Positions 18,103 through 33,076 of a stretch of DNA of 41,590 bases are shown one piece after another. Source of the DNA: Caldilineaceae bacterium. GTDB lineage: Bacteria; Chloroflexota; Anaerolineae; Caldilineales; Caldilineaceae. The notes under the pieces are model-generated. The model worked only from the letters and a program-made list of their open reading frames with translations. It did no database searches and had not been told where the DNA came from. Numbering within the stretch: the first letter of the stretch is position 1; each line of letters begins with the position of its first letter. The DNA lies in assembly GCA_022824685.1 (NCBI GenBank), contig JAJDZJ010000058.1, positions 1 through 41,590 of the forward strand, read 5' to 3'. Made by a program: the position numbers and the translations under genes.

Positions 18103-18137
18103 TTGTCAAGAACCGGAAAGTGCGAGAACATGTGTTC
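18103..18137 (+). promoter_or_regulatory. Promoter with LexA-like palindrome ahead of Uma2 gene 1
   Basis: TTGTCA (18103-18108), 17 bases, then GAACATGTGTTC (18126-18137), whose first hexamer occupies the -10 position. The palindrome has the GAAC-N4-GTTC form known for LexA boxes of Gram-positive type. The same arrangement precedes the Uma2 gene at 24724, with 23 identical bases around the box. The box ends 50 bases before the ATG. Confidence 0.5.
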
Positions 18138-18187: not shown

Positions 18188-18766
18188 ATGAAAACAAATT
18201 TGGGGCGCAGTATCAGTCCCGTAACGACCAAACTTACCTACGAGGATTATCTGAAGACCTCAGACGATGAACGCCTTGAACTCCTGGACGGGGTTCTAAC
18301 CTTGCCGCCTGCCCCGAACACCGCGCATCAGTCAGTTCAGACCGAGTTGGGTTGGCGGTTGGCCAGGTTCGTGAGAGGGAGGGATTTGGGACATGTCTTT
18401 TTCGCCCCGACCGATGTTGTCCTTTCCAATACCGATGTCGTGCAACCCGACCTGCTCTTCATTTCCAGAGAGAGGGCTGAATTCATCACCCCCGCCAACA
18501 TCCAGGGCGCGCCCGACCTGATCGTCGAAATCCGCTCAGACTCGACCGCCGAGCGCGATGAGACCCTCAAGCGTCAACTCTATGCCGACCATGGTGTTGA
18601 AGAGTACTGGTTGGTAAACCCTGAAGCCGCCACCACTGCCGTTCTCCGTTTAGGCGGCCAACGCTACGCTGAGACAGCTCTCTACACCGCGGGGCAGACC
18701 CTGGCCTCACCCAAGCTGCATGGGCTTTCAATCCCCCTGGACCACGTCTTTCTCGCCCACAATTGA
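18188..18766 (+). CDS. Uma2-family (PF05685) restriction-endonuclease-fold protein, copy 1
   Basis: 192 residues from ATG 18188; a GTG immediately before it could also serve, and GGAGGG is 9 bases upstream. Typical Uma2 order: L-T-Y-E-D-Y-L (16-22), E-L-L-D-G (31-35), H47, V-V-Q-P-D-L-L-F-I (84-92, Asp88), P-D-L-I-V-E-I (109-115, Glu114), L-K-R-Q-L-Y (127-132, Lys128), and V-E-E-Y-W-L-V-N-P. These residues fit the PD-(D/E)xK nuclease core. Function of the family is not established; members are abundant in cyanobacteria and Chloroflexota. It stands alone between a broken transporter and a sugar ABC operon, behind a promoter with a LexA-like palindrome. Confidence 0.85.
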   Translation: MKTNLGRSISPVTTKLTYEDYLKTSDDERLELLDGVLTLPPAPNTAHQSVQTELGWRLARFVRGRDLGHVFFAPTDVVLSNTDVVQPDLLFISRERAEFITPANIQGAPDLIVEIRSDSTAERDETLKRQLYADHGVEEYWLVNPEAATTAVLRLGGQRYAETALYTAGQTLASPKLHGLSIPLDHVFLAHN

Positions 18767-18906
18767 AATAGAACTGCCTCCCGGCCAAGCCCCACCCCTC
18801 TCCGACGACATCCCTACACCAGCCCCGCGGCGTTTACCCGCCCCATCCCTCCCCTGTAGGGGCGCCCCTTGTGGGCGGCCAAGCCCCTCCGTGTACATTA
18901 CAGTTG

Positions 18907-19022
18907 TTGCCGTTCGCCGTTGCCCTTCTCCGTGCCCCTTCGTGTCCCTCCGTGGACAAAAGGATGTTGCCGTCCGCCGTTGCCGTTCTTCGCGTCCCTT
19001 CGCGAACCTTCGCGGATCAATC
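18907..19022. repeat. Two imperfect tandem copies of a 60-bp intergenic unit
   Basis: Copies begin TTGCCGTTCGCCGTTGCC at 18907 and TTGCCGTCCGCCGTTGCC at 18967, exactly 60 bases apart. Both continue with CTTC/TTC-CGTG/GCG-CCCTTCG-like steps. C/G-rich short words (CGTCC, CCTTCG) recur inside each unit. Noncoding and probably a dispersed family in this genome. Confidence 0.55.
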
Positions 19023-19057
19023 CCCTTCCCCGCAGTTCCCCCATACGAATTACCGCA

Positions 19058-19086
19058 TTGACAACGATTTTCCGGTATGCTAGTTT
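19058..19086 (+). promoter_or_regulatory. Candidate promoter of sugar ABC operon 2
   Basis: A consensus -35 TTGACA (19058-19063), 17-base spacer, and TAGTTT (19081-19086) as a weak -10. It lies about 150 bases before the binding-protein start. Confidence 0.4.
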
Positions 19087-19238
19087 ACTCACGCCGGCCG
19101 CGTTACAACTATATATTGAATCACAAGAGTTGGTCCGCCTTTCACCGCCCCGCGGCCGTCTGTGACGAGCCAAAAAAGCGAACCGATCCGTCCAGCAGCG
19201 CTATCTCATCTATACAACCCAGTTCGAGGAGGAAAAGC

Positions 19239-20558
19239 ATGGAGATGCAAAACTCTAGTCGACGACAGTTTCTCAAAACTGCCGGTCTTGCCGGCTTCGG
19301 GCTGGCCATGGCCGCCTGCGTTCCCGCCGCGGATACCGGTATGGAAGGCGGAGCCGCCGACGAAGAACCGGTCGAGCTCTCTCTTTGGGGCTGGTGGGAC
19401 ATCCGCATGGATCTCTACCGCAGCGTAGCCGACCAGTTCGCAGAACAGAATGACCGCATCACCGTCGATGTCCAGTCCATCGCCGGCGGCTATGTGGAAA
19501 AGCTCTACTCCGCCCTCGCAGCCGGCACCGGACCCAACATGATTAAAATGCGCTCCCTTGCCTTCATGCACCAGATGCGCGAAGAGAACCTCCTGCTGGA
19601 GTTCCCCGAAGACATCTTCCCACCCAGCTGGTTCGAAGAGGCCTACCCCCTCTTTGACATCAAGACCAACGGGCGCTACGTGCTTCCCACCGGCACCACC
19701 TGTACACTCATGATGTACAACAAGCAGATGTTTGAAGAAGCCGGACTCGATCCTGAATCGCCCCCCAAGACCTGGGACGACCTGATCACCGCAGCCAAGG
19801 CGGTCACCCAGAAGGACGGAACCGGCGCCATTTCCCGGGCCGGATTTGCCGTCACCGGCGAATGGCCCGTTCTGAGCCAGATTTATCAACTGGGCGGCAA
19901 TGTCATCCAGAACAATGGCGATGAACAGATCTCCCTCATGACCAGCCCCGAAGTCCATGAGGCATTCACCCACATCGCCAACCTGGCCCTGGTCCACGAA
20001 GTCTGGGATCCCGGCTTCCCCAACTTCGACTCCATCGGCAACGGCCTCGCCGCCATGACCGAGGAACAGACCTGGGTGATCGGTGAGTATACCAATACCT
20101 ATCCCGATATGTACCCCAACATCGGCTACACGCACCCGCCAACGCCAACCGGCGAAGCCGACCCGCTCTATGGCTACAAAGACACCGTAACCTCTATCTC
20201 TGCCGTGACCGGCCACTCCGAAAACGATGGCGACACGTGGGAGTTCATGGAGTACCTGTACAAGGACGGCGGCAAAGACGCCTACTGGGCCCTCTGCGAA
20301 CTGATCTCGCTCGTGCCGGAGCGCGCAGACCTCATGTCCGACCCCAGGCTGCTGGAAACGCCCGGCCTTAGAGAGGCCTCTGAAGTCAATCCCTTTGAAC
20401 GCAACTACGCCGCCGTGCCCGAGCGCGCCGGCGCCATCCAGAACGACGTCCTGCATCTGATCGTCAGAGAGGGACGCCCCGTGGCCGAGGCTCTCGAGTA
20501 CGGCGACGCCGAGATCCAGAAGATCATCGACGAGGGCTTGGCCAAGTACTGGGTCTAG
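19239..20558 (+). CDS. ABC sugar-binding lipoprotein, paralog 1
   Basis: 439 residues from ATG 19239, preceded by an ideal GAGGAGG. Twin-arginine S-R-R-Q-F-L-K (7-13), hydrophobic stretch and lipobox M-A-A-C (Cys27) point to Tat export and lipid anchoring. Mature start L-S-L-W-G-W-W-D, then L-A-A-G-T-G-P-N-M and V-L-P-T-G-T-T-C-T-L-M-M-Y-N-K are typical of CUT1 family-1 binding proteins. The nearby gene at 23206 encodes a protein of exactly the same length with the same landmarks throughout, so one is a duplicate of the other. This copy is followed by its own permeases; a hairpin at 20603-20631 separates it from them. Confidence 0.9.
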   Translation: MEMQNSSRRQFLKTAGLAGFGLAMAACVPAADTGMEGGAADEEPVELSLWGWWDIRMDLYRSVADQFAEQNDRITVDVQSIAGGYVEKLYSALAAGTGPNMIKMRSLAFMHQMREENLLLEFPEDIFPPSWFEEAYPLFDIKTNGRYVLPTGTTCTLMMYNKQMFEEAGLDPESPPKTWDDLITAAKAVTQKDGTGAISRAGFAVTGEWPVLSQIYQLGGNVIQNNGDEQISLMTSPEVHEAFTHIANLALVHEVWDPGFPNFDSIGNGLAAMTEEQTWVIGEYTNTYPDMYPNIGYTHPPTPTGEADPLYGYKDTVTSISAVTGHSENDGDTWEFMEYLYKDGGKDAYWALCELISLVPERADLMSDPRLLETPGLREASEVNPFERNYAAVPERAGAIQNDVLHLIVREGRPVAEALEYGDAEIQKIIDEGLAKYWV

Positions 20559-20874
20559 GCCGGACAGCTGGCCTGCAGTGGCTGCTATCAGTCGAAAGTG
20601 AAACTCCCACACCTCCTGTAGGTGTGGGAGTCACTATGTCCGAAACACATCCGGTCCGCGAACCCGTGCTGCCTGGCCAGTTGGGGTCGGCCAGACGACC
20701 ACGAATTGACCAGCGATCCGCGTCGGTCCATATGCCGGTTGACTGGATCGCTTTCGGGTCTGCCGCTGGGTGTCCGCTTTCAAACCTGCTCTGCCGAAAC
20801 GCGTACTGCTGTTGCCAAACCTGTTCGCCGATCCCCGCCGAAGACACCGCAAACGCTCCGTGGGAGGCGATGTG
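20559..20874. other. Intercistronic region between binding-protein and permease genes
   Basis: 316 bases, unusually long for a gap within an ABC operon. It holds the perfect hairpin at 20603-20631 and no gene. TTGACC (about 20706) followed 17 bases later by CATATG could be a secondary promoter for the permeases; it is weak. Confidence 0.45.
20603..20631 (+). terminator. Intercistronic hairpin between binding-protein and permease genes
   Basis: ACTCCCACACCT (20603-20614) pairs perfectly with AGGTGTGGGAGT (20620-20631) around a 5-base loop CCTGT, 44 bases after the binding-protein stop. No T run follows. Same position relative to gene order as hairpins in the other two ABC operons of the window. 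Confidence 0.6.
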
Positions 20875-21792
20875 ATGATTCAAACTATCGCACAGAAATT
20901 CACAGGCAGACGGTCCACGCTGCGCGCCGCCGAGCACCGTTTCATCGTCATCGCCCTCGTCCCCACCATCATCTTCTACGCGATCGTAAAGTTCTACCCC
21001 ATATTCTTTTCCTTCTTCATCAGCATGCACGAATGGAGCCTCTTCGGAAACGTCTCCCCCTATGTCGGTTTCGACAACTACGCCCTCCTGGCCAAGGATT
21101 CGCTCTTCTACAAGGTCATGTGGAACACCATGTACCGCACCTTCGCCGGCACTTTTCTCGGCGCATTCTGTTCCCTCATCGTCGCCCTCATCCTCAATCC
21201 CATCAAGCGCGGCAGCATACTCCTGCGTCTGATCTATTTCCTGCCCGTAATGACCTCCGTCATCGCCAGCGCCACCATCTGGAAATGGATGCTGCAGACC
21301 CGTTTCGGCCTGCTTAATCAACTTCTCAGCTACGTGGGCATCCAACCGGTCGCCTGGCTGCAGTCCACCACCTGGGCCATGCCCAGCATCATCGTGATGG
21401 GCATCTGGGGAGGCATCGGCTTCACCGTCATCATCTATCTCGCCGGATTGAAAGGTATCCCCAAGGACTACTACGAAGCCGCCGAAATCGACGGCGCCAG
21501 CAGCATCCAACTGGCCCTCAAGATTACTCTGCCGCTGCTCAAACCGGTCGTCTCCTTCGTTCTCATTACCGGCGTTATCGGTGGCTTCAGCGGTGGCTTC
21601 CAGGCCATCTACATGATGACCGGCGGCGGCCCGCTCGACTCCACCAGGGTGCTTGCGCTCCACATCTACGACTACGCCTTCCAACGCATGTTCATGGGCC
21701 AGGCCTCCAGCATGTCCTTCGTCCTTTTCGCGATCGTTCTCATCCTTACTCTCGTCCAATTCAAACTGCAACGGGTCGACTGGGAACTATGA
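20875..21792 (+). CDS. Carbohydrate ABC transporter permease, MalF/UgpA type
   Basis: 305 residues from ATG 20875, with GGGAGG 8 bases upstream; the open frame extends to 20770 but that part is unlike the family. Six hydrophobic segments, first F-I-V-I-A-L-V-P-T-I-I-F-Y-A-I-V. EAA loop Y-E-A-A-E-I-D-G-A-S-S-I-Q-L-A-L-K-I-T-L-P, and M-T-G-G-G-P near residue 250. It forms the channel with the following permease; no ATPase gene is encoded nearby. Confidence 0.9.
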   Translation: MIQTIAQKFTGRRSTLRAAEHRFIVIALVPTIIFYAIVKFYPIFFSFFISMHEWSLFGNVSPYVGFDNYALLAKDSLFYKVMWNTMYRTFAGTFLGAFCSLIVALILNPIKRGSILLRLIYFLPVMTSVIASATIWKWMLQTRFGLLNQLLSYVGIQPVAWLQSTTWAMPSIIVMGIWGGIGFTVIIYLAGLKGIPKDYYEAAEIDGASSIQLALKITLPLLKPVVSFVLITGVIGGFSGGFQAIYMMTGGGPLDSTRVLALHIYDYAFQRMFMGQASSMSFVLFAIVLILTLVQFKLQRVDWEL

Positions 21793-21854
21793 CTTTCTTC
21801 ACGCCCATCGCAACCAGGCATCTTTCTTCCCCTGGCCTTTCATTGGAGTAATGC

Positions 21855-22751
21855 ATGGCTAACCAGGACTTTGTTGGTATACCTAGCCAGGTCGATACGC
21901 GGGCTCTAAACCGCGGCGCATCCGATTTCCAGCGCCTGCGCCGGGGCCTGTTGTTCAACTATCTCATCCTGGGCGCCGGCGCCATACTGATGATCGTTCC
22001 CTTCATCTGGATGATCAGCACCTCCTTCAAACCGCAGGCCGAAACCGTCTCCTTCCCGCCCCGTCTCTTCCCCATCAACCCCACAATTTCGAACTATATT
22101 GATGTCTTCGACCGCGCCAACATGGGCCGGCTCTATTGGAATACCACCTTCATCAGCGTCATAAAAACCGTCTTCAACATCTACACCAGCGCGCTCCTCG
22201 GCTACATCTTCGGCAAATTCGTCTTTCGCGGCCGCGACGTCATCTTCTACATCCTGCTCAGCACCTGGATCATCCCCTTTGAAGTCTATCTGATCCCCCT
22301 CTACCTAATGACCGTCCAGGTCGGCTTGGCCAATACCTATACCGCCCTGATCGTGCCCGAAATCTTCACCATCTATGCCATGTTCATGTTCCGCCAGTTC
22401 ATGTACACCATCCCCACCGAGCTGATCGACGCCGCGCGCATTGACGGCGCCGGCGAGTGGTACATCTTCCACCGCATCATTATTCCGCTCTCTAAGGCTG
22501 CCCTCTTCACCCTCATCGCCTTCTACTTCATGTGGAACTGGAACGATTTTCTCTGGCCTCTCGTCGTCATCGCCGACCAGGACAAATACGTCATCACCGT
22601 CGGCCTCGCCACCTTCGTCGGTGAATACTGGAGCCAGTACGGCGTCATCATGGCCGGTGCCAGCCTCGCCATCATCCCCATCCTCGCTCTCTTCATCGCC
22701 GTCCAGCGCTTCATCATCGAAGGCGTCGTCCTCACCGGCCTCAAAGGCTGA
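21855..22751 (+). CDS. Carbohydrate ABC transporter permease, MalG/UgpE type
   Basis: 298 residues. The N-terminal 30 residues are hydrophilic (M-A-N-Q-D-F-V-G-I-P), followed by six hydrophobic segments starting Y-L-I-L-G-A-G-A-I-L-M-I-V-P-F-I-W. The family segment S-T-S-F-K-P and EAA loop I-D-A-A-R-I-D-G-A-G-E-W-Y-I-F-H-R-I-I-I-P are intact; the loop ends I-P instead of L-P. It ends G-V-V-L-T-G-L-K-G, the usual C-terminus of this subunit. It is 62 bases after the partner permease; GGAG lies 8 bases before ATG 21855. Confidence 0.9.
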   Translation: MANQDFVGIPSQVDTRALNRGASDFQRLRRGLLFNYLILGAGAILMIVPFIWMISTSFKPQAETVSFPPRLFPINPTISNYIDVFDRANMGRLYWNTTFISVIKTVFNIYTSALLGYIFGKFVFRGRDVIFYILLSTWIIPFEVYLIPLYLMTVQVGLANTYTALIVPEIFTIYAMFMFRQFMYTIPTELIDAARIDGAGEWYIFHRIIIPLSKAALFTLIAFYFMWNWNDFLWPLVVIADQDKYVITVGLATFVGEYWSQYGVIMAGASLAIIPILALFIAVQRFIIEGVVLTGLKG

Positions 22752-23205
22752 AATCCCCGCCACCCACTGACCACTGACCACTAACCACTGCAGTTACGCG
22801 GTCGGGCCTTCGGCCCTCCCTTGTGCAGGGGATGGGTCCCGCAACGCCCCCCTTCAAGCTCGCGCCGCAGCGGGTGTGAGGGCAAAGTGATCTTGGCGGC
22901 CCGCAGCGGCCCCGTTTCCCCAATCCCTCGTCTTGGCCGGGTCCCATCGAGAGCCCCCAATACAAATCCTGACGGTCCACTCCGAATCCAGGCAGACCGC
23001 GCGCCACACGCACACAGAATATGGATTGCGGCCAAATTGGAAGTTAGTTCGCAGAAACAATCGGCGCGAGAATTATAATCAAGAATTCAGACACTGTTTT
23101 CTGTATCGAATTGTCTGGTCACAGTCTTTACCGACCCGGAAGGTGTACTCGGCAGTCCTCGAAGGTAGATACTTCTGTCCAACTCAAATCAAGGAGGGGT
23201 ATAGC
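22752..23205. other. Intergenic region before the duplicated binding protein
   Basis: 454 bases without a gene. It contains a heptamer tandem repeat (22764-22790), a GGGCC-TTC-GGCCC mini-hairpin near 22806, and TATAAT at 23074-23079 as a possible -10 about 125 bases before the next start, without a good -35. The open frame running through it into the binding-protein gene is not coding. Confidence 0.45.
22764..22790. repeat. Heptamer tandem repeat (CCACTRA)
   Basis: CCACTGA, CCACTGA, CCACTAA and a partial CCACTG, 13 bases after the permease stop. A related low-complexity ACTGAAAAC repeat lies at about 8490-8535 between the xylA and xylB remnants. Confidence 0.6.
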
Positions 23206-24525
23206 GTGAAAATGCAAATCCCTAGCCGGCGTCAGTTTCTGAGAGCAGCCGCCTTCGCAGGCCTCGGACTGGCCTCGGCCGCCTGCGTTCCCGTGCCGGA
23301 AGTCAGTACCGATATCGCAGCAACCAGCGAAGAACCGGTAGAGCTATCTCTATGGGGCTGGTGGGACACGCGAATGGCTCATTACCGCAGCGTAGCCGAC
23401 CAATTCGCCGACCACAATGGGGGAATTACTGTTGACGTCGACGCCACTGCCGACGGCGATCCGGAGAAAGTCCTCTCCGCCCTGGCAGCCGGCGCCGGGC
23501 CGAACATGCTCAATATGCCTGACCTCTTAACCATGCACCGTTTTCGTGAGGAGGACCTCCTGCTTGCGTTCCCGGAGGCCATCTTCCCGCGCAGCTGGTT
23601 CGAAGAGGCCTACCCCCTGTTCGATATAGAGACCAACGGACGATACGTCCTACCCACCGGTTCTACCTGTGCGCTCCTTATGTACAACAAGAGCATGTTC
23701 GAGGAAGTCGGACTCGATCCTGAGTCACCCCCCACAACCTGGAGCGACTTCACCACCGCGGCAAAGGCGCTTACCCGCAAAGACGGCAGCGGCGCCATCA
23801 CCCGCGCCGGGTTCGCTCTCACTCTTGACTGGCCCGTCCTCAACCAGATCTATCAACTGGGCGGCAACGTGATCCATAACAGCGGCGATCAACAGATCTC
23901 CCTGATGACCAGCCCCGAAGTCCATGACGCCTTCACCTACATCGCCGACCTCGCCCGCGCTCACCAGGTCTGGCATCCCAGCCTTCCCGACCACGAAGCC
24001 GTTGGCAAAGGCCGCGCGGCCATGACCGAAGAACAGAGTTGGGCGATAAATGAGTTCTCTGACACCTATCCCGATATGTACCCCAACATTGGCTACTCGC
24101 GCCCGCCAACCCCAACCGGCGGCCCCGAACCGCTCTTCGGATACAAGACCATCGTCCCTTCAATCTCTGCTCTAACCGGCCGCCCCGAAAATGAAAGCGA
24201 AACCTGGCTGTTCATGGAGTACCTGTACAAGGACGGCGGCAAGGAGGCCTACCGGGCTCTGTGCCTGCTGAGCGCGCTCGCGCCGGAACGCGCCGACCTG
24301 ATGTCCGATCCCCGGCTGATGGAAACGCCCGGTCTCAGCGCGGCCGCTGAGGTCAACCCCTGGGAGCGCAGCTACGGCGCCGCGCCCTATCGCGCCGCCG
24401 CCGTCCTCCACGACGTACTGCATCTGACTGTCAATGAGGGACGAACCGTGGCCGAGGCCCTTGAATTCGGCGAAACAGGGATTCAGACGATCATCGACGA
24501 GGGTCTGGCCAAGTACTGGGTCTGA
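23206..24525 (+). CDS. ABC sugar-binding lipoprotein, paralog 2 (orphan)
   Basis: 439 residues from GTG 23206; AAGGAGG is 8 bases upstream, and an ATG two codons later is an alternative. S-R-R-Q-F-L-R and lipobox S-A-A-C (Cys27) as in paralog 1. The mature parts keep the same blocks in the same order (L-S-L-W-G-W-W-D, W-F-E-E-A-Y-P-L-F-D, L-M-T-S-P-E-V-H, M-E-Y-L-Y-K-D-G-G-K, D-E-G-L-A-K-Y-W-V), while many ligand-facing and surface positions differ. Gene length is identical (1320 bases). It has no permeases of its own, so it probably feeds the permeases encoded at 20875-22751 with another ligand, or is drifting after duplication. The reading frame is intact. Confidence 0.85.
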   Translation: MKMQIPSRRQFLRAAAFAGLGLASAACVPVPEVSTDIAATSEEPVELSLWGWWDTRMAHYRSVADQFADHNGGITVDVDATADGDPEKVLSALAAGAGPNMLNMPDLLTMHRFREEDLLLAFPEAIFPRSWFEEAYPLFDIETNGRYVLPTGSTCALLMYNKSMFEEVGLDPESPPTTWSDFTTAAKALTRKDGSGAITRAGFALTLDWPVLNQIYQLGGNVIHNSGDQQISLMTSPEVHDAFTYIADLARAHQVWHPSLPDHEAVGKGRAAMTEEQSWAINEFSDTYPDMYPNIGYSRPPTPTGGPEPLFGYKTIVPSISALTGRPENESETWLFMEYLYKDGGKEAYRALCLLSALAPERADLMSDPRLMETPGLSAAAEVNPWERSYGAAPYRAAAVLHDVLHLTVNEGRTVAEALEFGETGIQTIIDEGLAKYWV

Positions 24526-24641: not shown

Positions 24642-24676
24642 TTGACAAAGCCTGACAAGTGCGAGAACATGTGTTC
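24642..24676 (+). promoter_or_regulatory. Promoter with LexA-like palindrome ahead of the Uma2-AAA-DUF4276 operon
   Basis: Consensus -35 TTGACA (24642-24647), 17 bases, then GAACATGTGTTC (24665-24676) overlapping the -10. The 23 bases 24657-24679 are identical to 18118-18140 upstream of the other Uma2 gene, although the flanks differ. GAAC-N4-GTTC is the form of Gram-positive-type LexA boxes. Box to ATG distance is 47 bases. Confidence 0.5.
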
Positions 24677-24723
24677 AATTGGCCGTCCGTTCTGGTCAAT
24701 GTAGTCTTGGCAGGAGGGCAACG

Positions 24724-25305
24724 ATGATTGGACCGAGAGCGGTCTCACCCAGCAGTCCTGAGACGACCAAGCCCACATTCGAGGACTACCTGCAGACCGC
24801 CGACGATGAACGCTACGAACTGCTGGATGGAGAACTGTTCATTCCACCGGTCCCGAACATAGCCCACCAGCACGTTGCCATGAAACGAGGGACGCGGCTT
24901 GACACATTCGTTGAGGACGGGAATCTGGGAGTTGTATACTCTGCCCCAACCGACGTTGTGCTATCCCAAACCGACGTAGTCCAGCCCGACCTGATATTCA
25001 TCTCTTCAGAGCGGGCCCACATAGTTACTACTGCCAATATCCAGGGTGCGCCTGACCTGATCGTCGAAATCAGCTCCGACTCCACCGCTGGACGCGACGA
25101 AACGCTCAAGCGCCAACTCTACGCAGAATGTGGGGTACAGGAGTACTGGCTGGTCGATCCAGAGGCCAGGACCATCACCGTTATGCTGTTAGGCGAGGAT
25201 GGCTATGCGGAAACAGCTACGCATACCGATGTACAGACACTGACTTCTCCCATGCTGGAAGGATTCGCTGCCCATCTAGACGAGATACTTCTCTCCCGGC
25301 CCTGA
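24724..25305 (+). CDS. Uma2-family (PF05685) restriction-endonuclease-fold protein, copy 2
   Basis: 193 residues from ATG 24724, 6 bases after AGGAGGG. Same motif order as copy 1: T-F-E-D-Y-L, E-L-L-D-G-E-L, V-V-Q-P-D-L-I-F-I, P-D-L-I-V-E-I, L-K-R-Q-L-Y-A, V-Q-E-Y-W-L-V-D-P, and the ending T-L-T-S-P-M-L-E-G-F. The putative nuclease residues (Asp of Q-P-D, Glu of V-E-I, Lys of L-K-R) are intact. It is followed after 26 bases by an ATPase gene and then, with one-base overlap, a TOPRIM-like gene. This makes it the probable first gene of a three-gene operon controlled by the LexA-like box. Its biochemical role is unknown. Confidence 0.85.
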   Translation: MIGPRAVSPSSPETTKPTFEDYLQTADDERYELLDGELFIPPVPNIAHQHVAMKRGTRLDTFVEDGNLGVVYSAPTDVVLSQTDVVQPDLIFISSERAHIVTTANIQGAPDLIVEISSDSTAGRDETLKRQLYAECGVQEYWLVDPEARTITVMLLGEDGYAETATHTDVQTLTSPMLEGFAAHLDEILLSRP

Positions 25306-25331
25306 ACTGGAGACGTGGAGGACTATTTCAA

Positions 25332-26564
25332 ATGCCAAGCCCCATGCAGATCGAAAGCATTGCCGTCAGGAACTTTCGCTGCCTTCGCGACATCGCGCTA
25401 CATGATTTGACGCGCATGACAATAGTTGTGGGCGCAAACGGCTCCGGGAAGTCGTCGCTGGTCGATGTGTTCACTTTTCTGAAAGATGCCTTGACGCAGA
25501 ACGTGGCCGCAGCGGTGGCGCAACGCGGTGGGTATCGTGAATTGATCACCCGGGGAGAGGCGGGGCCGCTGGAGATCACCTTGCAGTTTCGCGAGAGCGG
25601 CGGACGGCTGGCGACATACCAGTTGAAAATATCTCAGGCCCAAAATCGTGCAGTCGTGGAGCACGAGGCGCTGAGTTATCGTAAAGGGCAGGGTGGCCGT
25701 TGGGGGTGGCGCTTCGTGGACAATCGCCGAGGAGAGGGCGAAGTAATCACGAACGAGTCCGAGTACGGTGTGTCCGCTACGAAAGGCGAAGACCAGAAAA
25801 AAAGGAAGTTCAAACTTGATGACCCCAGCACATTGGCTATCAAGAGCTTTGGCCAGCTTCAAGAGTTCCCGATTGTATCGGAGTTCCGCAAATTTATCGA
25901 GAATTGGCACATCTCCGACTTCCAACTTGCCGACGCGCGGCCAAGCGCAGAATTCGGTTACGCCGAGCACCTGTCCACGCGCGGCGACAACGTCGCGTTG
26001 GTGGCAAAATACCTCTATGAAAACCATCCTCGGCAGTTCAATAAAGTACTCCAGGCCATGCGCGAACGCGTCCCCGGGGTGAGTGACGTGGAAGCAAAGC
26101 CTACCGAGGACGGTAGGCTGGTTCTTCGCTTTCAAGATGGCAGCTTCCAGGATCCTTTCATCGCTCGCTATGTATCTGACGGCACTATCAAAATGTTCGC
26201 CTACCTTGTCCTGCTCTACGATCCAAATCCACACCCGCTGCTGGCGGTCGAGGAGCCGGAGAATCAACTCTATCCCGCACTGATGCGGGAGCTCGTTGAG
26301 GAGTTTCACGACTACGCTCGGCGCGGAGGCCAGGTTTTCGTGTCTACCCATTCTCCCGACTTTTTGAACGGCGCGGAATTGGACGAAATACGCTGGCTGG
26401 TCAAGGAAGACGGTTTCACCAATGTCCGCCGTGCTTCAGACAGCGAGCTGTTGCAGGCCTTGGTCCAAGAAGGCGACCTGCCCGGCGCGCTCTGGAGGCA
26501 AGGAGTATTCGACTCGCCCAGCATCCTCTGGAGGCAAGACGAACCAGAAGGACCACGACCTTAG
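25332..26564 (+). CDS. AAA-family ATPase (AAA_21/RecF-like, SMC-type head)
   Basis: 410 residues from ATG 25332, with GGAGG 10 bases upstream. It begins I-E-S-I-A-V-R-N-F-R-C-L-R-D-I, the typical start of OLD/RecF-type ATPases, then Walker A G-A-N-G-S-G-K-S-S (34-42), an ABC-like signature V-S-D-G-T (281-285), Walker B L-L-A-V-E-E-P-E (303-310) and the His switch S-T-H-S-P (338-342). All ATP-hydrolysis positions are present. There is no long coiled coil between Walker A and the signature, and no fused TOPRIM domain; the nuclease-like TOPRIM partner is encoded by the next gene, which starts inside this gene's stop codon. Such split ATPase plus TOPRIM pairs often act in DNA repair or anti-phage defence. 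Confidence 0.85.
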   Translation: MPSPMQIESIAVRNFRCLRDIALHDLTRMTIVVGANGSGKSSLVDVFTFLKDALTQNVAAAVAQRGGYRELITRGEAGPLEITLQFRESGGRLATYQLKISQAQNRAVVEHEALSYRKGQGGRWGWRFVDNRRGEGEVITNESEYGVSATKGEDQKKRKFKLDDPSTLAIKSFGQLQEFPIVSEFRKFIENWHISDFQLADARPSAEFGYAEHLSTRGDNVALVAKYLYENHPRQFNKVLQAMRERVPGVSDVEAKPTEDGRLVLRFQDGSFQDPFIARYVSDGTIKMFAYLVLLYDPNPHPLLAVEEPENQLYPALMRELVEEFHDYARRGGQVFVSTHSPDFLNGAELDEIRWLVKEDGFTNVRRASDSELLQALVQEGDLPGALWRQGVFDSPSILWRQDEPEGPRP

Positions 26565-27136
26565 TGAACCGAATCGTCTTCTTGCTGGAAGAGCCGTCCA
26601 TGCGGGAACTGCTCGATGGACTGCTTCCTCGTTTGTATCCCGAGTTGGACTTTCAGTGTCTTGTCCACGAAGGAAAGAATGATCTCGAGAGGAGCATCCC
26701 GCGCAAGCTCAAGGGTTGGAAAGAGCCAGGTGTGCGTTTTGTCGTTTTGAGAGACAACGACGGCGGGGATTGTTTACTTCTAAAGCAGCGACTTATGCAG
26801 TTGTGTAAGGCAGCGAATCGACCGGACACGATTGTAAGAATCGTGTGTCAGGAACTAGAAGCCTGGTATCTGGGTGAACCCGACGCTCTGGCAGAAGCCT
26901 TTGAAAACGAGAGACTGCGAGGAATCGGTCGCCAGGCGCGTTTTCGCGTTCCGGATGCAGTGCAGCAACCGTCCGAGGCCTTAAGGAGGCTCGTCCCTGG
27001 CTTCCGGAAAGTTAGCGGCGCGAAAGCGATTGCAGGTCTCCTTACGCGAGAAAGAAACAGTTCGAAAAGTTTCCAGGTTCTGCTTTCTGGGCTCGATCGA
27101 CTGTGCGCCGAACTCGCGGACGGCGCTTCCAAATGA
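26564..27136 (+). CDS. DUF4276 family protein (TOPRIM-like)
   Basis: 190 residues from GTG 26564, which shares one base with the ATPase stop (TAGTG), so the two are translationally coupled. Motifs fit DUF4276: first strand I-V-F-L-L-E-E-P-S-M (4-13) with Glu9/Glu10, V-V-L-R-D-N-D-G-G-D-C (60-70) with the acidic pair Asp64/Asp66, and Q-E-L-E-A-W-Y-L-G-E-P-D-A-L (96-109). The acidic strand-end residues match the metal-binding layout of TOPRIM folds, as in OLD-type nucleases. Predicted to act with the ATPase as a two-subunit nuclease or nucleic-acid sensor; the activity is inferred. Confidence 0.8.
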   Translation: MNRIVFLLEEPSMRELLDGLLPRLYPELDFQCLVHEGKNDLERSIPRKLKGWKEPGVRFVVLRDNDGGDCLLLKQRLMQLCKAANRPDTIVRIVCQELEAWYLGEPDALAEAFENERLRGIGRQARFRVPDAVQQPSEALRRLVPGFRKVSGAKAIAGLLTRERNSSKSFQVLLSGLDRLCAELADGASK

Positions 27137-27424: not shown

Positions 27425-27532
27425 CACAATTTATACAATTTGCACAAAGAATTGTGCCTTCGCGCTGAAATTTGGGTTCCTGGCACGAAATCTGATCCAC
27501 AATTTGCTTTGTAAATTGTGCGATTCGCACAA
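27425..27532. promoter_or_regulatory. Cluster of TTGTGC/GCACAA palindromes ahead of the nitrate operon
   Basis: Three inverted repeats: GCACAA-N4-TTGTGC at 27442-27457; CACAATTT-N7-AAATTGTG at 27498-27520; and the perfect odd palindrome TTGTGCGATTCGCACAA at 27516-27532, which overlaps the second. Two more half-sites, CACAATTT and ACAATTTGCACAA, lie at 27425-27447. All share ACAA/TTGT cores. The cluster is 105 bases before the nitrite reductase start and is a strong candidate for the binding region of a dimeric regulator of nitrate assimilation. The regulator is not encoded here. Confidence 0.55.
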
Positions 27533-27637
27533 CATCCTTGCTCTGATTTCGGCCACATTGCCCGTTCAAACTTGAATGGCGCTGCAATATGCTTTGCCAG
27601 TGTAGCAAACCGCTTCAAGGAAATGGGAGAAAAGGTG

Positions 27638-29257
27638 ATGAATTCGCATGTTGCAGAAGGAATGATGCCCTCCCCGGCTCACACGCCGAAGACGAACGGC
27701 AGAGGCAAGGCGAACGGCAGAGGCAAGGCCAAGTTGAACAAAGTTGAGCTGCTGAAACGCAAGAAGAGTCCGCTCAGCCTCATCCATGACATCTACCGCT
27801 GGGCTGATGAGGGTTTCGATTCGATTCCACCTGAATATTACGACCTCTTCAAGTGGCACGGCTTCTTCTATCGCAAACAGACGCCGGGCTACTTCATGTT
27901 GCGAATGCGCATCTCGAACGGAGTCCTCAACTCCACTCAGCTGCGGGCTGTCGCCGAACTTTCACGCGATTTCGGACGCGGCGTGGGCGACTTCACAACT
28001 CGCCAGAATATCCAACTGCGCTGGATAACCGTTGAAAGCATGCCCCCAATCATAGAAAAATTGCAGTCGGTCGGACTCGGATCCGAGCAGACAGGGATGG
28101 ACAATTTTCGCAATGTGACCGGGTGTCCGCTCACCGGCCTGGCGCGTCATGAACTGCTTGAGACCCGGCAACTGACGACAGCAACGGCTCTATCTCTTTT
28201 GGGGCCGGAATTCGAGAACATTCCGCGCAAATTCAACATCTCGATCAACGGCTGCCGGCTGGACTGTACGCACGCGCAGAGCAACGACATAGGCCTGACG
28301 CCGGCCATTGGGCACGTTGGAAGCCGGCCCGCGCCGGGATTCAACGTCGTGGTTGGCGGACACATGGGAAGCAGGAACCCACATCTTGCCATTCCGCTTG
28401 ACATGTTTGTGCGCCCTTCACAAGTGACGGCTCTATGTCGCGCAATATTGACGGTATTCCGCGACAACGGCAGTCGAGCAGTGCGGGGCAAGGCCCGTCT
28501 GTGGTATCTAATCGACGAGTGGGGCATTGACAAGTTCCGGGACGAAGTGACGAAGGCGCTGGGTGAGCGGATGCCGGCAGCGGGGACGTGCCAACTTTAC
28601 CGTCATCCGGACCCCCTGGAGCAGGACCACGTGGGTGTCCACCCACAGATCCAGGAAGGTCTTAGTTATGTAGGCATGGTGGCGCCCACCGGCCGCGTCA
28701 CCGCAGACCAGCTGTTTGATCTTGCCGGACTGGCGGACAGATACGGCAACCGTGAAATACGTCTGACCAACGATCAAAATGTGATTATACCCAACGTACC
28801 CGATGAAAGGGTTGACGCCTTGCTGGAGGAGCCGCTGTTGGAAGCGTGGAGCCCCTCGCCCTCGGGCGTCATGCGCGGGTTGGTCACCTGCACGGGCATC
28901 GATCACTGCCACTTTGCGCTCAACGACACAAAGGGTATCTCGCTGGCCATTGCCCGCAAGCTGGAGGAGCGTCTGCCCGACCGCGACAAGGTGGTGCGAC
29001 TGAACGTATCGGGCTGCGTTCACGCCTGTGGCCGTCACCGGCTTTCGACAATAGGACTTGAGGCCACCCGGCTCCGACAGGACGGCAAAGTGATCGACGG
29101 ATTCAACATATTTGAAGGCGGGCGCCTGGGCGAAGACGCCAGACTCGGAGTCGAGGTCCACCGAAAAGCCACGATAGAGGAGACAACCGAGCTGCTGGCG
29201 GAGGCCATCGCTTCTCGCTACAAGTCAGACGAGGTCCCGTCCGCAGTTCCTGCCTAG
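27638..29257 (+). CDS. nirA: Ferredoxin-type nitrite reductase (siroheme, 4Fe-4S)
   Basis: 539 residues from ATG 27638, with GGGAGAAAAGG just upstream; an ATG at 27623 is an alternative. Two cysteine pairs bind the 4Fe-4S/siroheme centre: C-T-G-I-D-H-C (Cys418/Cys424) and C-V-H-A-C (Cys460/Cys464), the first followed by H-F-A-L-N-D-T-K, typical of nitrite rather than sulfite reductases. The ferrite-like repeats are present (F-M-L-R-M-R-I-S-N-G; R-Q-N-I-Q-L-R-W-I; R-E-I-R-L-T-N-D-Q-N). It reduces nitrite to ammonium with six electrons in the cytoplasm. The N-terminus has an 18-bp tandem duplication (27704-27739) giving G-R-G-K-A-N-G-R-G-K-A. First gene of the nitrate assimilation operon; a sulfite reductase role is less likely in this company. 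Confidence 0.88.
   Translation: MNSHVAEGMMPSPAHTPKTNGRGKANGRGKAKLNKVELLKRKKSPLSLIHDIYRWADEGFDSIPPEYYDLFKWHGFFYRKQTPGYFMLRMRISNGVLNSTQLRAVAELSRDFGRGVGDFTTRQNIQLRWITVESMPPIIEKLQSVGLGSEQTGMDNFRNVTGCPLTGLARHELLETRQLTTATALSLLGPEFENIPRKFNISINGCRLDCTHAQSNDIGLTPAIGHVGSRPAPGFNVVVGGHMGSRNPHLAIPLDMFVRPSQVTALCRAILTVFRDNGSRAVRGKARLWYLIDEWGIDKFRDEVTKALGERMPAAGTCQLYRHPDPLEQDHVGVHPQIQEGLSYVGMVAPTGRVTADQLFDLAGLADRYGNREIRLTNDQNVIIPNVPDERVDALLEEPLLEAWSPSPSGVMRGLVTCTGIDHCHFALNDTKGISLAIARKLEERLPDRDKVVRLNVSGCVHACGRHRLSTIGLEATRLRQDGKVIDGFNIFEGGRLGEDARLGVEVHRKATIEETTELLAEAIASRYKSDEVPSAVPA
27704..27739 (+). repeat. 18-bp tandem duplication inside nirA
   Basis: GAACGGCAGAGGCAAGGC occurs twice in direct succession, coding for two N-G-R-G-K-A units in the basic N-terminal extension of the nitrite reductase. 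The extension lies before the conserved domain, so copy number could vary harmlessly. Confidence 0.7.
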
Positions 29258-29295
29258 AGCTCACCTTCTGTCCAGTTATAATGGAGATTTCCCCC

Positions 29296-30645
29296 GTGGA
29301 CTTCAAGAACAAAGCCACCAAGATCGATCTGTTCAGTTTCAGAACGCCGCAGATGCGGGCATTCCACGTCACCTGGTTTGCTTTCTTTCTCTGTTTCTTT
29401 GGCTGGTTTGGCATTGTGCCGCTTATGAAGGGGGACAACGGCGTCATCGCGACGCTCGGTCTCAGCCCTGCTGAGGTAGGAAACTCTGTCATTGCGGCTG
29501 TTTCCCTGACCATCATCGCGCGACTGATTATCGGGCCTATGTGTACACGATTCGGCTCGCGTAAGGTGTACACGGGGCTGCTGCTGCTAGGTTCTTTGCC
29601 GGTCATGGGGATCGGTCTGGCGCAGACGCCTAACCAGTTCATCATTGCACGGGTCCTGATCGGCACAATCGGCGCTTCATTCGTAATAACCCAGTACCAC
29701 ACAAGTGTAATGTTCGCGCCCAATGTTGTGGGCGCGGCCAACGCAACCACGGCAGGGTGGGGCAACCTGGGCGGAGGCGTCACCCAGGCCGTGATGCCCT
29801 TACTCCTGGCTGCCGTGCTGACATTCGTGCCCGCGGCGATGGGCTGGCGGGTGGCCATGGTGGCTCCCGGGGTAGCGATGCTCTTAACCGCCGTGGCCTA
29901 CTGGTTTCTGACCCAGGATGCGCCGGACGGCAACTATTCGGACCTGCGGAGGCGCGGGGATATGCCAACAGCGGCCGATTCAAGAGGCACGTTTGCAGAG
30001 GCCATCAAGGATTCACGGGTGATTGCGCTCTTCTTCATCTATGCAGCCTGTTTCGGCATTGAACTGACCATTAATGGGACCGCTGCCCTCTACTTTTTCA
30101 ATCGTTTCGAATTGAACCTTGCGACAGCAGGCCTCGTCGCCAGCCTCTTTGGTGTGATGAATATCTTCGCCCGTTCCATGGGCGGGCTTTTCAGCGATTA
30201 CATCAACCGCAGCGGCGGCCTGAAGGGACGGACGCAGTTTCTGTTCGTATGCCTCATCCTGGAGGGAATCGCACTGGTGTTGTTTGCAAACATGGGGGCG
30301 CTGGCGCTGGCAATCCCTGCGCTGATCGTCTTCAGTCTGTTTGTGCAGATGTCGGAGGGGGCCACCTTTGCAATTGTTCCCTACATCAATAAACGCGCCA
30401 TGGGCGCGATTGCCGGCATCGTCGGGGCCGGGGGGAACTTCGGAGCAATGCTGGCAGGATTTCTGTTCCGGCGAGAGGCGGACATGTATGGCCAGTCCTA
30501 CCTGATTCTGGGCATCCTCGTAGCAGTATGCGCTTTCATGGCGCTGATGGTGCGTTTCTCTGAGAAAGAGGAGAAGGATGCCGCGGAAGAGACCGCCGCC
30601 CGGCTAGCCGATTCAAGCGAGTCGGTCTTTACAGGCGCCAACTAG
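29296..30645 (+). CDS. Nitrate/nitrite transporter, MFS NNP family (NarK/NasA type)
   Basis: 449 residues from GTG 29296, chosen because GGAGA is 7 bases upstream; ATG 29281 has no ribosome-binding site but is possible. The protein starts D-F-K-N-K-A-T-K-I-D-L-F and has twelve hydrophobic segments. The two glycine-rich NNP signatures are present: A-G-W-G-N-L-G-G-G-V-T-Q and G-I-V-G-A-G-G-N-F-G-A. The nitrate-contacting arginine region R-L-I-I-G-P follows the first third. Inner-membrane carrier that brings nitrate, or exports or imports nitrite, for the reductases encoded on either side; 38 bases after nirA. Confidence 0.88.
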   Translation: MDFKNKATKIDLFSFRTPQMRAFHVTWFAFFLCFFGWFGIVPLMKGDNGVIATLGLSPAEVGNSVIAAVSLTIIARLIIGPMCTRFGSRKVYTGLLLLGSLPVMGIGLAQTPNQFIIARVLIGTIGASFVITQYHTSVMFAPNVVGAANATTAGWGNLGGGVTQAVMPLLLAAVLTFVPAAMGWRVAMVAPGVAMLLTAVAYWFLTQDAPDGNYSDLRRRGDMPTAADSRGTFAEAIKDSRVIALFFIYAACFGIELTINGTAALYFFNRFELNLATAGLVASLFGVMNIFARSMGGLFSDYINRSGGLKGRTQFLFVCLILEGIALVLFANMGALALAIPALIVFSLFVQMSEGATFAIVPYINKRAMGAIAGIVGAGGNFGAMLAGFLFRREADMYGQSYLILGILVAVCAFMALMVRFSEKEEKDAAEETAARLADSSESVFTGAN

Positions 30646-30736
30646 CCGCCCGTTTCCGGGCTGATGCAATGCTCGCAAGCAGGCAACCGAGAGCTTCAGG
30701 TTACATAGCCGGGACGCACACGAAACAGTTCGAAAT

Positions 30737-33076
30737 ATGATGAAATCCAAAGAACCTTCGCCAGGGCGTGGAATGGAAAGCGGAAAGATCGACAACTGGC
30801 AGGACACATATTGTCCTTATTGCGGAGTCGGGTGCGGCCTCAGGGTCGGCATTCGCGATGGGAAGGTTGCCAAAGTGCGGGGCAATCCCGATCATCCCTC
30901 CTCCTTGGGCGATCTTTGCCTCAAGCCGATCCACCTGCCCGGCGCCCTGGATACACCTGACCGCATTCGCGAGCCGCTTATGCGGATGAACGGTGCTGGA
31001 AGCGATGCACACTCTGCGAAGGGTTCCCTGCGCAAAGTGACCTGGGACAAGGCGACGACCTACATCGCATCCAACCTCAAGCGCATCGTCCGGCAGCACG
31101 GGCCCGATGCGGTGGCCTTCTACGGTTCCGGCCAGTTCACGACCGAAGATTACTACGTGGCCAACAAGCTGCTTAAGGGGTTCATCGGCACCAACAACTT
31201 CGATGCCAACTCGCGGTTGTGCATGGCCTCAGCGGTTGCGGGGTATGTCTCAGCGCTCGGTTCCGACGGACCGCCCCCCGCGTACGAGGATATTGACCAC
31301 GCAGACTGTTTCCTGCTTATCGGCGCCAACATGGCCGACTGCCATCCGGTCCTGTTCAATCGCATCAAACGGAGAAAGAAGCGAGATCCCGAAAACGTAA
31401 AGGTAATCGTGGTTGATCCCAGAGAAACGCGTACAGCCGCCATCGCCGATCTTTTTCTGCCGATTCGACCCGGATCCGACGTTGTGCTTCTCAACGGGAT
31501 GATGAATGTTCTCGTTTCCCAGGGGAAGATCGATCGCGCATTCATAGCTGAACACACGAACGGCTTTGATGAGTTGATGGAGGCATGCTGTCAGGTCTCG
31601 ACCGCCGCTGCAGCCAAGGTCTGCGGCATTTCTGAAGGCGACTTGATTCAGGCCGCGCGCCTATTTGGTGAAGCACGCGGGGTGCTCTCTTTTTGGAGCA
31701 TGGGGCTGAATCAGAGTGTAAACGGCGTGGCAAAAAACCAGGCAGTCATCAATCTGCACCTGGCTACCGGTCAGATCGGGAAGGCGGGCAGCGGCCCCTT
31801 TTCCCTGACAGGGCAGCCGAACGCCATGGGCGGACGCGAGGCCGGGGGATTGTCTCACCTGTTACCGGGCTATCGCACAGTTGCGAACGCCGACCATCGC
31901 CAGCAAGTGGAAAGGGTCTGGGGGCTGCCGGAGGACTCCATTAGCGACAGACCCGGTCTGGCCGCGGTCGACATGTTTGAGGCCGCAGCCAGAGGCGAGG
32001 TCAAGGCGATGTGGATCATGTGTACCAATCCGGTCGTCTCCATGCCCAACCTTGACGCTGTCGAAAAGGCAATGGAGAAGCTCGAACTGCTCGTGGTAAC
32101 CGATGCCTATCATCCGACCGATACGACACGGTATGCTCATATTCTGCTGCCGGCGGCACAGTGGTCGGAAAGGGAAGGGGTGATGACCAATTCGGAGCGG
32201 CGCATCACGTATCTTCCCCGCATGGTGGACCCAGTCGGTCAGGCCAAGCCGGACTGGCGAATCATCGCGGACGTGGGCGCGGCCATGGGGTTTTCGCATG
32301 CCTTTCCCTATGCGTCATCAGAGGATGTCTTTGACGAATTTACACAGTTGACCAGAGGACGAGTTTGCGATTACAGCGGAGTGAGCGTACGGAGGCTCCA
32401 GGCAGAGGGTCCCCTCCAGTGGCCGATACCCGATGACGATCATCCTGGCACTGAAAGGCTGTACTCAGGGCTGCATAGCAGACAGTCCCGCCAGCCCATC
32501 GACACGATGGATGGCGACCGCAAGGTCCTGTCTGTGGAGACGGTTGGAGCCAGCAGAGAGGGGGGCGCGAAAGTTTTCGCAACTGCTGACGGCAGGGCAA
32601 CATTTCATACCCCTGAATTTGTGCCTCCGGCTGAACTGCCAAACAGGAAGTTTCCTCTGCTTCTGACAACAGGCCGCCTGCGAAATCAGTGGCATACCAT
32701 GACCCGGACCGGCAAGTCAGAGAGCCTTTTGAAGGGCGCACGAGAGCCTTTCCTCGAGATACACCCAGTTGATGCCGTGCGGCGGCAGATCGAGAACGGG
32801 GACGTAGTCGAGGTTCGCTCACGCAGAGGCAAAGTGTGGGCAACCGCGCGGGTAACGGAGAGTATCAGGGAGGGGGCCTGCTTCATGCCCTTTCACTGGG
32901 GACGCCTGGCCGGCCGGTTCAGCGCCGCCAACAATTTGACCGTGTCGGCGGTGGATCCGATTTCGAAGGAACCTGAACTCAAAGCCTGTGCGGTCGAAGT
33001 GAGGCTGCGGCCAGGATATCAGGGAATACAGACTTCAAAGCTCTATCAACGCCTGGCCAAAGTGGTAAGAGGATAG
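30737..33076 (+). CDS. Assimilatory nitrate reductase, molybdopterin catalytic subunit (NarB/NasC type)
   Basis: 779 residues. The N-terminal 4Fe-4S motif C-P-Y-C-G-V-G-C with a later cysteine in D-L-C-L-K-P gives Cys26, Cys29, Cys33 and Cys61. The molybdenum-ligand cysteine is Cys162 in R-L-C-M-A-S-A. Molybdopterin oxidoreductase features follow: D-C-F-L-L-I-G-A-N-M-A-D-C-H-P, V-V-D-P-R-E-T-R-T, S-L-T-G-Q-P-N-A-M-G-G-R-E, and the C-terminal molydopterin-dinucleotide domain T-G-R-L-R-N-Q-W-H-T-M-T-R-T-G and P-F-H-W-G. It reduces nitrate to nitrite in the cytoplasm, probably with ferredoxin. The N-terminus is soluble with no Tat motif, which fits the assimilatory type rather than periplasmic NapA. 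Third gene of the nirA operon, 91 bases after the transporter. Confidence 0.9.
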   Translation: MMKSKEPSPGRGMESGKIDNWQDTYCPYCGVGCGLRVGIRDGKVAKVRGNPDHPSSLGDLCLKPIHLPGALDTPDRIREPLMRMNGAGSDAHSAKGSLRKVTWDKATTYIASNLKRIVRQHGPDAVAFYGSGQFTTEDYYVANKLLKGFIGTNNFDANSRLCMASAVAGYVSALGSDGPPPAYEDIDHADCFLLIGANMADCHPVLFNRIKRRKKRDPENVKVIVVDPRETRTAAIADLFLPIRPGSDVVLLNGMMNVLVSQGKIDRAFIAEHTNGFDELMEACCQVSTAAAAKVCGISEGDLIQAARLFGEARGVLSFWSMGLNQSVNGVAKNQAVINLHLATGQIGKAGSGPFSLTGQPNAMGGREAGGLSHLLPGYRTVANADHRQQVERVWGLPEDSISDRPGLAAVDMFEAAARGEVKAMWIMCTNPVVSMPNLDAVEKAMEKLELLVVTDAYHPTDTTRYAHILLPAAQWSEREGVMTNSERRITYLPRMVDPVGQAKPDWRIIADVGAAMGFSHAFPYASSEDVFDEFTQLTRGRVCDYSGVSVRRLQAEGPLQWPIPDDDHPGTERLYSGLHSRQSRQPIDTMDGDRKVLSVETVGASREGGAKVFATADGRATFHTPEFVPPAELPNRKFPLLLTTGRLRNQWHTMTRTGKSESLLKGAREPFLEIHPVDAVRRQIENGDVVEVRSRRGKVWATARVTESIREGACFMPFHWGRLAGRFSAANNLTVSAVDPISKEPELKACAVEVRLRPGYQGIQTSKLYQRLAKVVRG

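Follow-up and report, generated by a model that had tools for sequence, protein, structure and literature searches.

Gene organization of the locus

The window analysed here, 41,590 nucleotides long, is one whole contig of a Caldilineaceae genome of 5.23 Mb (G000; 243 contigs, 98.7% complete). Three open frames lie in tandem on its forward strand: a Uma2 gene (24724..25305), a gene for an SMC/Rad50-like ATPase (25332..26564), and a gene for a DUF4276 protein (26564..27136). The Uma2 gene, for which we coined the name UmaA, opens with ATG and its product matches PF05685 with an E-value of 8.7e-36; the ATPase matches AAA_21 (E 2e-32), and the DUF4276 protein, whose gene opens with GTG, matches the Pfam family of that name (E 9.3e-15). 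A gap of 26 bases separates UmaA from the ATPase, and the GTG of the DUF4276 gene overlaps the TAG of the ATPase by one base, so the coordinates and the Pfam matches confirm the three genes with 26- and −1-base spacing of the initial annotation. No NCBIfam model scored above its cut-off for any of the three proteins, and Rfam gave no match anywhere in the window.

In front of UmaA, a TTGACA hexamer (24642..24647, forward strand), the likely −35 element, lies 17 bases 5' of the 12-mer GAACATGTGTTC (24665..24676, forward strand), an SOS/LexA-type box that covers the likely −10 element and stands 47 bases 5' of the UmaA ATG. A second copy of the box (18126..18137, forward strand) stands 5' of a second Uma2 gene (18188..18766, forward strand; PF05685 E 2.8e-35), named UmaB in this analysis. 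UmaB opens a stretch (18188-24525) that continues with a transporter binding protein, two permeases, and, here, a second binding protein. On the other side of the locus, a nitrite/sulfite reductase, an MFS transporter, and a molybdopterin oxidoreductase occupy 27518-33076, likely a nitrate assimilation cluster.

An exact box shared with recA

The 5.23 Mb genome holds three copies of the exact 12-mer GAACATGTGTTC, against about 0.34 expected from base composition, and their occurrence there is not due to chance. The three copies stand before recA, on another contig, before UmaA, and before UmaB, the last being 6.5 kb upstream of UmaA. The suggestion of a LexA-type box, made at first from the window alone, is thereby borne out by an identical 12-mer in this genome's own recA promoter. 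In the genus, a whole-genome search returned 25 copies in 11 of the 17 genomes, and we examined all of them: 10 stand before recA, 6 before UmaA, and 9 before UmaB. Across the 46 genomes of the family there are 36 copies, including these 25, versus 5 copies of a reversed control pattern, none of them in the genus. The 11 copies outside the genus are spread over 8 genomes, and only one, in a member of another genus of the family (G041, L125, position 4001), precedes a clear SOS gene, uvrA; the other 10 fall within genes, at a distance from SOS genes (in one case 334 bases from ssb), or in an unclear setting. The six genomes of the genus from which the exact 12-mer is absent carry a variant box at the first recA gene (recA1), a perfect GAACN4GTTC in five of them and a site with one mismatch in G011.

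GAACN4GTTC is given as a LexA motif of Bacillus and Mycobacterium in passages of PMC3323433. By itself, this degenerate form is weak evidence: the window holds two sites versus 0.54 expected, a number matched by 8 of 100 shuffles, and the source genome holds 46 sites versus 80 for the reversed pattern. We rejected it as a genome-wide motif for this lack of enrichment and therefore relied on the exact 12-mer and its position. Among the 15 boxed Uma2 promoters of the genus, a comparison of the sequences flanking the box found 22 of 90 columns invariant and a mean identity of 65%, too low for a recent copy alone to account for the common box; the invariance of the box itself (12/12) follows by construction, the promoters having been chosen for it. 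A TTTG-CAA block, likely the −35 element, is invariant in all 15.

recA and lexA in the genus

Each of the 17 genomes has two recA matches, which are G000:C84:1-363 (L009) and G000:C81:1-348 (L213) in the source genome; the identity of the boxed gene was confirmed by profile on its orthologue in G013. The recA1 promoter holds a perfect GAACN4GTTC in 16 of the 17 genomes, with variation in the middle four bases. At recA2 there is at most a degenerate site, GAACATCTATTC or similar, near the start, and thus a strong box is found only at recA1. A lexA gene (TIGR00498) was found in 12 of the 17 genomes of the genus and in 40 of the 46 of the family. We scanned 30 of these 40 lexA promoters, and 23 contain GAACATTCGTGC, GCACAGATGTTC, or close forms, near-copies of the GAACN4GTGC type; within the genus the count is 10 of 11. 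In G014, one near-copy occupies the spacer between the −35 and −10 elements, TTGACA and TATACT. In their sequences, the recA1 and lexA promoter sites look like LexA operators of the GAACN4GTTC type.

The TIGR00498 search found no lexA in the source genome (98.7% complete), nor in G007, G009, G010, and G013 (the last 99% complete), yet the source genome and G013 keep the exact box at recA1, umaA, and umaB. The operator is shared with recA and placed over the promoter as in an SOS regulon, and a lexA of its own was not found in the source genome. Two Peptidase_S24 matches in the source genome were considered as LexA and rejected, since their translations read signal-peptidase-like on inspection. 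The missing matches could mean that a regulator other than LexA reads the box, or that the box is dead in the source genome since lexA has gone. We regard this as highly unlikely: without a reader, the box would be expected to drift, but it is kept exactly at three promoters of the source genome; the majority of the genus has lexA, with near-copies in its promoter as counted above; and the five assemblies without a match consist of 50 to 730 contigs each, so lexA may simply be missing from the bins.

The Uma2 lineage of UmaA and UmaB

UmaA combines the PF05685 profile with the residues of a PD-(D/E)XK-type nuclease fold (D89, E115, and K129, all intact in the source genome), and it also matches the PADLOC candidate PDC-S03 (E 1.5e-38). 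Its solved relatives are 6okh (E 3.3e-37), 9y1l, and 1wdj. Judged from their sequences, UmaA and UmaB are likely DNA-cutting enzymes. In a tree of 51 Uma2 proteins, the two are sister paralogues within one clade of 20, with a clade support of 93/93, just under the mark for strong support of the tool. The exact box is present in 15 of the 20 promoters of this clade versus none of the other 31 Uma2 genes in the tree. It is likewise absent from the upstream regions of 71 non-clade Uma2 genes (21 of the source genome and 50 of the genus, among the matches listed, which number well over 100), one of which, L215 in G020, has a copy with one mismatch. The Fisher test of 15/20 versus 0/71 gives p = 2.8e-13, a value that ignores the kinship of the sequences. 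We therefore rejected the idea that the box is common to all Uma2 genes. The exact box is missing from five of the 20 clade promoters, three of which belong to Uma2 genes directly ahead of an ATPase.

The recA-type box has been kept over the two paralogues and over ten genomes. UmaB has no ATPase behind it; a sugar ABC transporter follows it in each of the 10 genomes in which it was found. Five genomes (G000, G006, G012, G013, and G014) have the order UmaB, transporter, UmaA, ATPase, DUF4276. In G010, UmaA and its box are kept, and of the ATPase-DUF4276 pair only about 13 ATPase codons are left before other sequence sets in; a deletion of the pair that spared UmaA is the simplest explanation. 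Since the second Uma2 gene, with no ATPase behind it, has the box, and since the box is kept in G010, we assign the box to a lineage of Uma2 genes that is a predicted part of the SOS regulon, with the ATPase-DUF4276 pair sitting behind it. The initial annotation had taken the box for an element of the three-gene operon itself, which does not hold, as it goes with the Uma2 lineage, including the copy without an ATPase.

The UmaA of G006 (L102, 4375-4935) keeps the box and has the pair behind it, and it has lost D89, K129, and E32; this copy evolves faster, with a dN/dS of 0.48. For the other UmaA copies in the pairs tested, dN/dS was 0.21-0.43; it was 0.14-0.22 for UmaB and 0.05-0.15 for the ATPase, which indicates that all three are kept as proteins. 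Many species of the genus carry one or two recA-boxed Uma2 genes, and because these share the control site of recA, their induction by DNA damage is likely.

Tight LexA control of a nuclease would also fit a solo toxin triggered by damage, in which LexA silences a self-harming nuclease and strong damage or infection frees it to kill or arrest the cell; Uma2, as a predicted endonuclease, is proposed as a likely solo toxin in a passage of PMC2701414. However, the source genome carries 23 Uma2 copies, 21 of which have no box, and purifying selection acts on the boxed copies tested as it does on ordinary genes. We consider a toxin role unlikely.

The ATPase-DUF4276 pair

In PADLOC, the profile that best matches the ATPase is that of HEC-01 (E 1.2e-162), and the best family of another name is AriA (E 1.3e-31). 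The adjacent, overlapping DUF4276 protein matches the HEC-01 partner profile (E 2.2e-59). The HEC group (Hma-embedded candidates) owes its name to embedding in Hma defence loci. Such embedding was not found in the window, where the neighbours are Uma2, the sugar ABC transporter, and the nitrite/sulfite reductase, and it occurs in two relatives, L062 (with HmaA and HmaC) and L064 (with HmaB and HmaC); it is not known to be required for a PADLOC call. By these profile matches, the ATPase and the DUF4276 protein represent a known candidate defence pair, PADLOC HEC-01. Several HECs, HEC-06 among them, are active against phage according to passages of PMC12988326, which do not mention HEC-01.

In an alignment of 23 ATPases, the Walker A residues G34, N36, G37, G39, and K40, the Walker B residues E307, E308, P309, and E310, and the His-switch residues T339, H340, S341, and P342 are invariant. 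In the DUF4276 alignment (n = 33), D66, E97, and E99 are invariant, and E9, E10, and D64 are at least 90% conserved. The key residues are therefore intact in all three proteins, as had been claimed, including D89, E115, and K129 of UmaA. A sequence search for solved relatives of the DUF4276 protein found none, and its structural model adopts the Toprim fold of the OLD nucleases, so that the early assignment to ATPase and Toprim pairs of the OLD, PARIS, or Gabija kind is upheld. Our search of the open-access literature found nothing on DUF4276, alone or with Uma2, nor on HEC-01 with PADLOC.

The box was also considered as a promoter element of HEC-01 and rejected, as it is absent near most ATPase or DUF4276 loci that lack Uma2. 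We found no GAACN4GTTC site near the ATPase of G008, of G018, or of any of the five relatives from outside the genus, and none at the source genome's four other DUF4276 loci. Among the 23 loci scanned, over half of which offered only about 1.5 kb of flank each, there was one such site, GAACGAGTGTTC, at L299 in G012, where the ATPase is 42% identical.

Uma2 as a genus-level partner of the pair

Orthologues of the ATPase with at least 74% identity exist in 10 of the 17 genomes of the genus, a count that excludes an ATPase fragment of 74 residues in G008 (C96), and a Uma2 gene directly precedes 8 of the 10. The box is present at five of these eight loci (G000, G006, G012, G013, and G014) and absent from three (G009, G016, and G020). 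The ATPase is frameshifted in G014; in G016 it has a stop, and the DUF4276 gene is in pieces. The two remaining loci, an orthologous pair in G008 and an ATPase at a contig end in G018, have neither Uma2 nor box. We scanned 23 further loci with ATPase or DUF4276 genes (those of five close relatives from outside the genus, G008, G018, the four other DUF4276 loci of the source genome, and 12 more distant ATPase loci) with a Uma2 HMM and found no Uma2; all 10 control loci gave a Uma2 match with this HMM. The scan did not include L066 and L067, two partial ATPase loci in which tblastn found no Uma2. In four of the five relatives outside the genus, DUF4276 stands behind the ATPase, as seen with tblastn.

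Since Uma2 adjoins the ATPase at 8 of the 10 orthologous loci of the genus and at none of those scanned outside it, a general three-gene system is unsupported; the gene content of these loci makes Uma2 a genus-level partner of the pair that is not in its defining core. The initial annotation had made conservation of Uma2 beside the pair a refuting test, which the system passes at most loci of the genus and fails at the loci scanned outside it. It had also recognised no described system in the arrangement; the ATPase-DUF4276 pair is already known as HEC-01. A dedicated three-gene defence system, with Uma2 as a working subunit beside the ATPase and the Toprim protein, would explain the frequent adjacency across a short gap (26 bases here), the three open frames, and the one-base overlap. 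Against it, ATPase orthologues stand without Uma2 in G008, G018, and all five relatives outside the genus, two of them in Hma loci; UmaA stands without the pair in G010; UmaB has the box and the clade membership with no ATPase behind; and in G006 the pair is kept behind a Uma2 with lost active-site residues. We hold such a system to be quite unlikely.

A predicted SOS-controlled Uma2 lineage

The reading we prefer, to which we assign a probability of about 0.6, is that an SOS-boxed Uma2 gene and the HEC-01 pair behind it are co-transcribed when LexA leaves the box after DNA damage. LexA bound to the box would cover the −10 region and keep the promoter silent. RecA filaments formed on damaged DNA, or on DNA that invades the cell, would then provoke the self-cleavage of LexA, and UmaA and UmaB would be made together with RecA. 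The UmaA nuclease may serve in repair, in defence, or as a solo toxin. At the UmaA locus, read-through would yield the ATPase and the Toprim protein as well, and these two would attack foreign DNA as a split nuclease of the OLD type. In this scheme, the HEC-01 pair is probably an optional passenger and would owe its SOS timing to the Uma2 box. Several observations count against the explanation: the lack of a lexA match, the five of 20 clade members without the box, the six genomes of the genus that lack the exact 12-mer, the lack of GAACN4GTTC enrichment, the single clear SOS gene (uvrA) among the 11 places of the 12-mer outside the genus, and the damaged genes in G006, G014, and G016. The broader proposal, a lineage of the widespread Uma2 family as dedicated SOS effectors with two LexA-controlled nucleases and with HEC-01 under the same alarm in several species, is put forward only tentatively.

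The role of Uma2 proteins has been the subject of guesses, and passages of PMC1274311 and PMC2701414 propose a DNA-binding protein and a solo toxin. A box shared with recA offers a specific handle on this role, as it predicts timing and names the copies to test. Our search of the open-access literature found no link between Uma2 and LexA or the SOS response, nor did the Uma2 passages of papers that name both; what is new is the prediction that a lineage of Uma2 genes belongs to the SOS regulon and that, in several species, HEC-01 answers to the same control. The locus also presents the case of a candidate defence pair that has likely come under damage control by settling behind the promoter of another gene. 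If this is true, DNA damage itself would arm an antiviral defence, the HEC-01 pair, via the SOS-boxed Uma2 promoter.

Comparison with known systems

The locus shares with HEC-01 the same adjacent ATPase and DUF4276 profile matches, but here the pair lies outside any Hma locus, and an SOS-boxed Uma2 gene stands in front of it. The Toprim fold with conserved acids, modelled for the DUF4276 protein, is common to the OLD nucleases; however, those unite ATPase and Toprim in one protein, and here they are encoded by two genes. Unlike in PARIS (AriA-AriB), there is no match to the AriB profile, and unlike in Gabija, no GajB helicase adjoins the ATPase, which is flanked by Uma2 and, after DUF4276, by the nitrite/sulfite reductase. 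With the Uma2 family (PF05685, formerly DUF820; PADLOC candidate PDC-S03), there is agreement in the family match and the nuclease-type residues. The family is multicopy here as in some cyanobacteria and in Thermus, for which passages of PMC9403480 and PMC1274311 give 15 or more copies in some cases; the particular feature here is two sister paralogues with a recA-type box. Finally, the GAACN4GTTC-type SOS regulon of Bacillus and Mycobacterium, described in passages of PMC3323433, shares with the genus the form of the operator, which here stands before recA and, as near-copies, before lexA and overlaps the promoter; the regulon proposed here differs by counting Uma2 nucleases among its predicted members.
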